Position numbers and translations under genes: made by a program
NCBI GenBank assembly: GCA_014584705.1
Contig: JACTMJ010000009.1
Location: 124,001-188,000 of the forward strand
Length of the DNA stretch: 64,000 nt
Source: Acidobacteriota bacterium
Lineage (GTDB): Bacteria > Acidobacteriota > Terriglobia > Bryobacterales > Bryobacteraceae
Reading direction: 5' to 3'
The notes under the pieces: generated by a model
The model's database searches: none
What the model saw: the letters and a program-made list of their open reading frames with translations, nothing else
Told to the model about the DNA's origin: nothing
Shown: positions 56,454 to 58,666 of the stretch, piece after piece
Layout: every line of letters starts with the position of its first letter
How positions within the stretch are numbered: the stretch's first letter is position 1

Positions 56454-56529
56454 TGGTGACTCGGGCGGGACTCGAACCCGCGACCCTCTGATTAAAAGTC
56501 AGATGCTCTACCGACTGAGCTACCGAGTC
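56454..56529 (-). tRNA. tRNA-Lys (anticodon UUU), CCA encoded
   Basis: The minus strand gives a full cloverleaf: acceptor stem GACTCGG with CCGAGTC, D-arm GCTCAGTCGGTAGAGC, anticodon arm TCTGA-CTTTTAA-TCAGA (anticodon TTT), T-arm GCGGG-TTCGAGT-CCCGC, discriminator A and encoded CCA (complement of 56454-56456). 76 nt. TATGCT (complement of 56570-56575) is a possible -10. Confidence 0.98.
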
Positions 56530-56928: not shown

Positions 56929-57444
56929 ATGGAAACGGTGCCGATCGCTCCCGCCGACGTGCCGGAGTTAGTTGCGAAGATAACGGAGTTCCTGGTTCGC
57001 ATGCGCTCCATGGGGACGGAGGTGGCGTTCTGGAGAGCGAAATCAAACGCGGAGGAGCTCGCGCGGTTTCGCGCCACTCTGCTGGAACTCAACCAGCAGC
57101 CGGACTGGATGCGGGATTCCGTCCTGAATATTGCCAAATCGCTGAACGCTCTTGAAGAGTTGAAGAAGGTGATCGGCGCGTTTGTGGCGGAGGTCCCCTT
57201 CGAAAGCCGGGTGAACCTGGTCCACCGTTCGCTGATTTCCGTTTACCAACAGATCTACATTCTGGATAATCTGGCGACCTCCCTGCTCATACGGCTGGCG
57301 CGACAGGCGCGGAAGGGGGAGGAAAGCGCGCTGCAGGCGGGCAGCCTGTTGAGTGTCGAAGCGCGGCGCGAGACGCGGACGCGGTTTCGAGACGTAGTCC
57401 CCTCCTGGGACAGAAAGGACTGGGATCTTTATGACGACCTATGA
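56929..57444 (+). CDS. Helical protein overlapping a MazF-like toxin gene; putative atypical antitoxin
   Basis: 171 residues, mostly alpha-helical by residue pattern (PELVAKITEFLVRMRSMG, RDSVLNIAKSLNALEELKKVIGAFV), acidic overall toward the end (RKDWDLYDDL). I do not recognise a family. Its stop region overlaps the next start by 14 bp, which implies translational coupling. MazF/PemK partners are usually under 100 residues with an AbrB- or RHH-type N-terminus; this one is longer and lacks such a DNA-binding motif. So it is either a different kind of antitoxin or an unrelated gene. The upstream ribosome-binding site is weak. Confidence 0.6.
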   Translation: METVPIAPADVPELVAKITEFLVRMRSMGTEVAFWRAKSNAEELARFRATLLELNQQPDWMRDSVLNIAKSLNALEELKKVIGAFVAEVPFESRVNLVHRSLISVYQQIYILDNLATSLLIRLARQARKGEESALQAGSLLSVEARRETRTRFRDVVPSWDRKDWDLYDDL

Positions 57445-57841
57445 GCGCGGAGATATCGTGCTGGTGAGCTATCCGGTGAACGATGCGCTTGAGATGCACC
57501 TGCGCCCCGCGATGGTCGTCTATGACGTGCATCCGAGCGACACGGGGATCGCGGTGGTTCCGATCAGTCCGGAGCCTTCGGAAACCTATCTCACGCTGCA
57601 TCTGCCGCACGGATCCTTCGAAGCCGCGCGCTTCGGGCTGCTGCACGCGGGCTACCTGACGGCTTGCGGGGAGATCGTGGTCGAGCGGCCCTTCGTCGTG
57701 CGCAAGGTCGGACGCTGCCCCTGGCAGATGCTGAACGAGTTTTTCGGGATGATGGCCCGTCCCGTGATGCCGAAGGCCCCGGTTCGCGAACCGGAACGCG
57801 CCGCGCCCGCGGAGAGCCTCGTGAGGGAAGCAACGTATTAG
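57431..57841 (+). CDS. MazF/PemK-family toxin-like protein
   Basis: 136 residues. YERGDIVLVSYPVNDALEMHLRPAMVVYDVHPSD has the GDIV-x(4)-P-x(n)-RPA-V-V pattern of the MazF/PemK fold, and GIAVVPISPE supplies the second strand. MazF enzymes are sequence-specific RNases that arrest growth. The C-terminal about 40 residues (PVREPERAAPAESLVREATY) are an extension beyond the usual 110. It is coupled to the helical gene upstream. Activity is inferred from fold only. Confidence 0.75.
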   Translation: MTTYERGDIVLVSYPVNDALEMHLRPAMVVYDVHPSDTGIAVVPISPEPSETYLTLHLPHGSFEAARFGLLHAGYLTACGEIVVERPFVVRKVGRCPWQMLNEFFGMMARPVMPKAPVREPERAAPAESLVREATY

Positions 57842-57883: not shown

Positions 57884-58666
57884 TCAATCGCGCAACATCG
57901 CGGCGACCAAACCTTCCGCCGTGTGAACTTCCGCTTCGGCATTCACGCGCAGGCCGTGTTTCGCGGCAACCTCGCTGGTGACGGGACCGATGCTGGCGAT
58001 GCGCGCGCCCTTGAGCAGCGGCTGGCCGCCCATGGCCAGGAAGTTGGCGACGGTGGAACCGCTGGTGAAGGCGACCCAATCCACCCGTTCCGCGCGCTCA
58101 ATCAACGCTGCGACGGCCGCGACGGAAGCGGCGGGAATCGCACTGCGGTAGGCATCGACTGCATCGACAAGCGCGCCGCGTGCGCGGAGGGCTTCGGGTA
58201 CGACGTCGCGGGCCGCTTCCGCGCGGGGCAGCAGGAAGCGAACTCCCTCCAATGGCAGCACGCTGAAGGCGGCTGCGATGCTTTCGGCCACATATTGCTC
58301 CGGCAGCAACGCCACGGGGCAGCCCAGCGTTTCGAGCGCGGCGCGGGTGGCCGGCCCGATGGCGCAGATCCGCGCGGTTGCCAGCAGATCGCCAAGCGGG
58401 GGGAGACCGAGTTCCACGGCGCGCGCGGCTACCCGCTCCACGGTATTAGCGCTGGTGAAGATCGCCCATTGGTATCGGCCGGTTTCGCGCAGGGCGTCGT
58501 CGAGCGGGCCGGGATTCGCGGGCGGCAGTATTTCCAGCGCGGGGATGAGAAGCACGGTCGCGTCGCGAGCTTCGAGCATTTCCCGCAGTTCCGCCGCCTG
58601 ATGGAGCGGGCGGGTGATGATCACGCGCCGGCCGGCCAACTCACCGCGCGGGGGGTCAGGTTTCAC
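57884..58666 (-). CDS. hemD: Uroporphyrinogen-III synthase
   Basis: 260 residues from a GTG at 58666, inside the hemC 3' end (11-nt overlap), with GGAG about 9 nt before it. Two Rossmann-like lobes are visible: GRRVIITRPLHQAAELREMLEARDATVLLIPALEI and, later, VDWVAFTSGSTVANFLAMGG followed by RIASIGPVTSEVAAKHGLRV, the T-S-x-x-x-V and I-G-x-x-T patterns of HemD. It cyclises hydroxymethylbilane with inversion of ring D. The longer upstream frame is out of the gene and was rejected. Confidence 0.93.
   Translation of the reverse strand: MKPDPPRGELAGRRVIITRPLHQAAELREMLEARDATVLLIPALEILPPANPGPLDDALRETGRYQWAIFTSANTVERVAARAVELGLPPLGDLLATARICAIGPATRAALETLGCPVALLPEQYVAESIAAAFSVLPLEGVRFLLPRAEAARDVVPEALRARGALVDAVDAYRSAIPAASVAAVAALIERAERVDWVAFTSGSTVANFLAMGGQPLLKGARIASIGPVTSEVAAKHGLRVNAEAEVHTAEGLVAAMLRD

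Follow-up and report, generated by a model that had tools for sequence, protein, structure and literature searches.

Our main finding is that two overlapping genes probably form, at a modest level of confidence, a two-gene, translationally coupled toxin-antitoxin-like module of type II-like character, in which MazF has a new partner family. They occupy 56929-57841 on the forward strand of the window, that is, the whole 64,000-nucleotide stretch analyzed, which is part of contig C6 of a 4.88-Mb acidobacterial genome (G000). We conclude that the downstream gene encodes a divergent MazF/PemK superfamily protein; the upstream partner is most likely a new family placed beside this known toxin superfamily. 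The toxin-antitoxin reading is favored because the two genes are consistently paired, overlap, have diverged together and are found at different sites in related genomes.

The layout of the locus is given in Table 1. An earlier reading made from the sequence only had reported an overlap of 14 bp between the two genes, and the two open reading frames do share these bases: the MazF-like start codon lies within the codons for YDDL and the stop of the partner, whose protein ends in WDRKDWDLYDDL. Beyond hemD, the ORF list reads as hemC and hemA. Comparison of the upstream regions revealed no palindromic operator common to the loci, and no sigma-70-like promoter was found 5' of the pair, the sole match lying inside the partner gene. 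This internal match consists of two overlapping sets of sigma-70-like hexamers (57242-57270; 0.2 expected), which may possibly act as a promoter, internal to the partner gene, for the downstream MazF-like gene.

Table 1. Coordinates of the gene pair and its neighbors in the window
Feature	Position	Strand	Description
Partner gene	56929..57444	+	ATG start, 171 aa, predicted all-helical, no known family
MazF/PemK-fold gene	57431..57841	+	ATG start, 136 aa
Overlap of partner and MazF-like genes	57431..57444	+	14 bp
tRNA-Lys(TTT), left neighbor	56454..56529	-	Same site in two related genomes
hemD (uroporphyrinogen-III synthase), right neighbor, convergent	57884..58655 (start approximate)	-	HEM4 match, E 2.4e-52

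Single-sequence searches recovered both genes in 5 of 61 genomes, all of one genus. A profile of the partner matched 5 of the 257 genomes of the order, at nine places and again in a single Bryobacterales genus; among 396 genomes of the phylum it matched its own genome alone (1/396), and among genome contigs it matched six loci, all in Bryobacterales MAGs and at places matching those in the same genus. The pair is thus present in every genome of the genus (5/5), this sample being limited to five genomes, four of which are 74-87% complete. Relatives of the MazF-like protein extend beyond the genus, to 38 genomes plus its own one among the 396 of the phylum, and the partner was absent beside the three relatives outside the genus whose neighbors were inspected. 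Searches of viral contigs, plasmids and phages for the partner, and of viral contigs and plasmids for the MazF-like protein, gave no match.

At MazEF loci, a type II system is recognized as a two-gene unit with the partner in 5' position and a consistent pairing, and this is the arrangement at 9/9 places. The partner lies each time directly 5' of a MazF-like gene and overlaps it by 14-20 bp in an identical relative frame, the overlap being 14 bp in the families designated A, A-prime and D below, and 20 bp in family B. Partner homologues lacking a MazF gene, which the sequence-only reading had named as evidence that would refute the proposal, were looked for and none was found. The partner is intact at eight places; at the ninth (G001:C271) it runs over two frames, the result of either a frameshift or a misassembly. 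Its C-terminal piece scored 20.0 bits there, the highest score in 1000 shuffles being 6.6 (793 with a reported score), and this partner was also found independently by a whole-genome profile search (E 6.5e-5). Toxin matches numbered ten and were counted as nine, L011 (G004:C463:9181-9300) being dropped as a duplicate: it is a contig-end fragment that matches the last part of the G004:C312 copy without a difference over 41 residues.

The pairs fall into four families (A, A-prime, B and D) located at different chromosomal sites, and partners of different families are 26-37% identical. Family A, present in the window and in G003 and G004, lies beside tRNA-Lys, with hemD also adjacent in G000 and G003; the G004 locus is interrupted by a contig end, and hemC is on another contig. 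Family A-prime occurs in G001 and G002, near motA/motB in the former. Family B is found at another site in G000 and G003, and on a 3.1-kb contig in G004, while family D corresponds to the G001:C271 locus. In G001 and G002, other genes are next to hemD and no pair is present there. Given these differing locations and the hemD regions devoid of the pair, the chromosomal position of the pair varies within a single genus, as would suit an accessory module. Two observations were made in passing. At the family D locus (L059:5460-7128), downstream of the split partner, MazF-like and CBM9-like (PF06452) domains share one 470-aa frame. Near the family B pair of G003 (C316), L027:1155-4403 encodes a 1082-aa PLD / ResIII helicase / DUF3427 protein that looks restriction- or defense-like.

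Both genes are under purifying selection. Within family A, dN/dS values (NG86) were 0.296, 0.208 and 0.147 for the partner, and 0.064, 0.058 and 0.063 for the MazF-like gene. Since starts, frames and overlap are kept in other genomes, and since codon differences accumulate mostly at the third base, the gene pair is confirmed as real and above chance. Pairwise distances among partners and among MazF-like proteins are strongly correlated (r 0.97; 0/5000 permutations as high) over eight pairs, the ninth, split pair (G001:C271) being excluded; as the sequences form three clusters, this value mostly reflects whole pairs having been inherited or moved together. From gene order and co-divergence only, we infer that the 171-aa protein would be the antitoxin. 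Makarova et al. 2009 (PMC2701414) reasoned in the same way about small genes found next to genes of known toxins.

The sequence-only reading had held the MazF/PemK fold to be recognizable in the downstream gene. This stands through the relatives of the gene, but the copy of the window is itself a weak match: its 136-aa protein scored E 0.05 and 14.2 bits against PF02452 (PemK/MazF), under the 23.1-bit cut-off, so membership holds for the family and not for the window sequence alone. PF02452 matched six of seven family members at E<=10, with a best E of 1.6e-6, and one copy, the family D protein (G001:C271), exceeded the cut-off (24.6 versus 23.1 bits). In PHROGs, an A-prime member matched 'MazF-like growth inhibitor' (E 7e-5). 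When a family profile was compared with PDB sequences, Kid ranked first, at a value that is not significant (E 0.58). The AlphaFold2 model of the 136-aa protein is modest (pLDDT 59.6, from an alignment of seven sequences), and past residue 108 or so the protein is a variable, low-confidence tail. The top Foldseek match of this model was a MazF-type endoribonuclease (E 0.012). In a structural second look at the same model, rows 1-29 were all MazFs, with Z at most 7.8; CcdB came at rank 30 with Z 6.5, below the 29 MazF rows, most of which exceed it by no more than about 1. A PADLOC Specificity_I match on the MazF-like protein (E 0.0017) was dropped as weak.

Residues were compared in an alignment of the family, L036 and four PemK-like proteins from the phylum. 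In KpMazF (PMC8086154), Gly9, Gly26, Arg28, Pro29, Asn39, Thr51, Asp76 and Gln77 are conserved, toxicity is lost in R28A and T51A, and Asp76-Gln77 interacts with RNA. In our alignment the family retains RG at 6-7, R25-P26, G69-L70 and G94; R25 falls at the position of the catalytic Arg, which is invariant in the seven aligned members. At the position of KpMazF Thr51, the window family has Ser46, A-prime and B have Thr, and D has Ile. The Asp-Gln pair is absent, its position falling on C79-G80 in our reading of an ungapped block. The core carries a net charge of -4.1 in the window lineage, -1.2 and -3.3 in A-prime, 0.7 and 1.6 in B, and 3.6 in D, to be compared with PemK-like segments of the phylum, of which 25/27 are positive with a median pI of 9.74 (segments of at least 90 residues, shorter ones excluded). 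As two conserved RNA-contacting residues are missing and the protein is acidic in the window lineage, toxicity cannot be assumed; to judge by these residues, ribonuclease activity is possible and not assured.

The partner had been described from the sequence as twice the usual size, helical and without an AbrB or RHH motif, and each of these points was borne out. Its 171 aa compare with 74 aa for the PF11455 antitoxin at the ordinary PemK locus of the same genome. The AlphaFold2 model (mean pLDDT 73.0) is all helix with no strands, the main helices spanning residues 8-27, 38-56, 65-88, 100-127, 143-154 and 162-170. No AbrB, RHH, HTH or PF11455 domain was matched at E<=10 in 8/8 partner sequences, and no Pfam or NCBIfam family reached its cut-off in these eight members. 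Invariant residues include F34, W35, R36, P90, F91, R100, Q107, R122, W160, W165, Y168, D169 and L171. Since the last residues of the partner overlap the toxin start, Y168, D169 and L171 may be partly kept by the other frame; indeed, part of the YDxL conservation is imposed by the start codon that overlaps it. W160 and W165 are not within the 14-bp overlap.

Foldseek searches of PDB and BFVD with the partner model gave no match at E <= 0.001. Rows returned by VIA-align included Kar9, MukF, STAT and FliT/FlgN, up to Z 9.5. In view of the Foldseek result, and as such Z values are within the stated noise for helical bundles, no fold relative is named. Several candidates were set aside. HEPN proteins have as their hallmark a conserved R(x4-6)H motif, and the partner alignment contains no invariant His. 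The NCBIfam family BN6_48550 matched two of the eight members at 19 bits against a 90-bit cut-off, which we treated as chance; this lead, followed in 199 genomes and 14 controls, gave no match, which does not by itself show absence, and no paper was found. TSC22, APH, Tom22 and other weak matches were dropped. No published account of the partner was found among the listed titles and abstracts of the literature searches.

Because the Asp-Gln pair is missing, the core is acidic and constraint is strong, the main rival explanation is a non-toxic pair. The MazF-fold protein would then be domesticated, devoid of ribonuclease toxicity and engaged with the helical protein in a stable complex serving a normal cellular task. 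We regard this as rather unlikely. Ser in place of Thr, the Asp-Gln position falling on C79-G80 and the acidic core in the window lineage fit such a role. The last two also count against a toxin module, as does the lack of a common upstream palindrome. The dN/dS of 0.06 for the MazF-like gene and the presence of the pair in 5/5 genomes suit a housekeeping pair equally well. However, the catalytic Arg is invariant in the aligned members, Thr is retained in A-prime and B, the core is neutral to basic in families B and D, and the site of the pair varies between genomes.

It is also conceivable, at a clearly low probability, that the roles are swapped: the helical protein would be the component that acts, as an effector or otherwise, or else a chaperone for folding, and its regulator would be the MazF-fold protein. 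This would accommodate the unusual size of the partner, its lack of a DNA-binding family and the flagellar chaperone-like bundles (FliT, FlgN) among its structural neighbors, but these bundle matches (Z 6.7-9.5) do not rise above the noise for helical proteins, and no catalytic motif was noticed. Moreover, toxins are the rule among MazF-superfamily members (PMC2701414). A pair without function, made of chance neighbors or decaying genes, would agree with the split partner at one of nine loci (G001:C271); conservation, selection and co-divergence already contradict it, and we give it almost no credence.

Under the toxin-antitoxin reading, the upstream gene, coding for the helical-bundle protein, would be translated first, and the overlap would couple toxin synthesis to that of the partner. 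The MazF-like protein, probably a dimer, would cleave RNA by means of the conserved R25 together with S46 (Ser/Thr). The partner ends in an acidic stretch rich in W/Y/D, which may act on MazF in the manner of the C-terminal domain of MazE, a disordered domain that takes up an extended form on MazF (PMC4803016). More tentatively, and with some doubt, the pair might represent an undescribed class of MazF antitoxin: all-helical proteins of 170-180 aa without a DNA-binding domain, whose C-terminal W-W-Y-D tail, encoded up to and across the overlap, would neutralize a divergent MazF, translational coupling replacing operator binding.

Few types of MazF antitoxin are known, and most of them bind DNA and have a disordered tail. 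The pair has in common with MazEF and PemIK (Kis-Kid) the MazF/PemK fold, an upstream partner gene and the position of the catalytic Arg, but differs from them by a helical partner of 171 aa in which no AbrB domain was found, by Ser instead of Thr in the window copy, by the absence of Asp-Gln and by a toxin that is acidic in the window lineage. The same genome contains an ordinary PemK gene (L001, G000:C26:17786-18094) preceded by a 74-aa MazE-like antitoxin (PF11455, E 7.5e-27), a family which we take to be the same as the XF1863-type antitoxin. XF1863-type systems (Makarova 2009) share with our pair a MazF-fold toxin and a small upstream partner outside the AbrB class, whereas the partner described here has no PF11455 match. 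For the solitary MazF-mx of Myxococcus, the antitoxin MrpC is likewise unrelated to MazE, but MrpC is a distantly encoded transcription factor (PMC4803016), unlike the adjacent and overlapping partner of this report.

In the searchable data, the pairing of the partner with MazF is without exception. If the module is what we propose, a helical partner of double size, confined to one genus, would widen the range of MazF neutralizers. If the MazF-fold protein is inactive, the pair would instead illustrate the recruitment of a toxin fold to another task.
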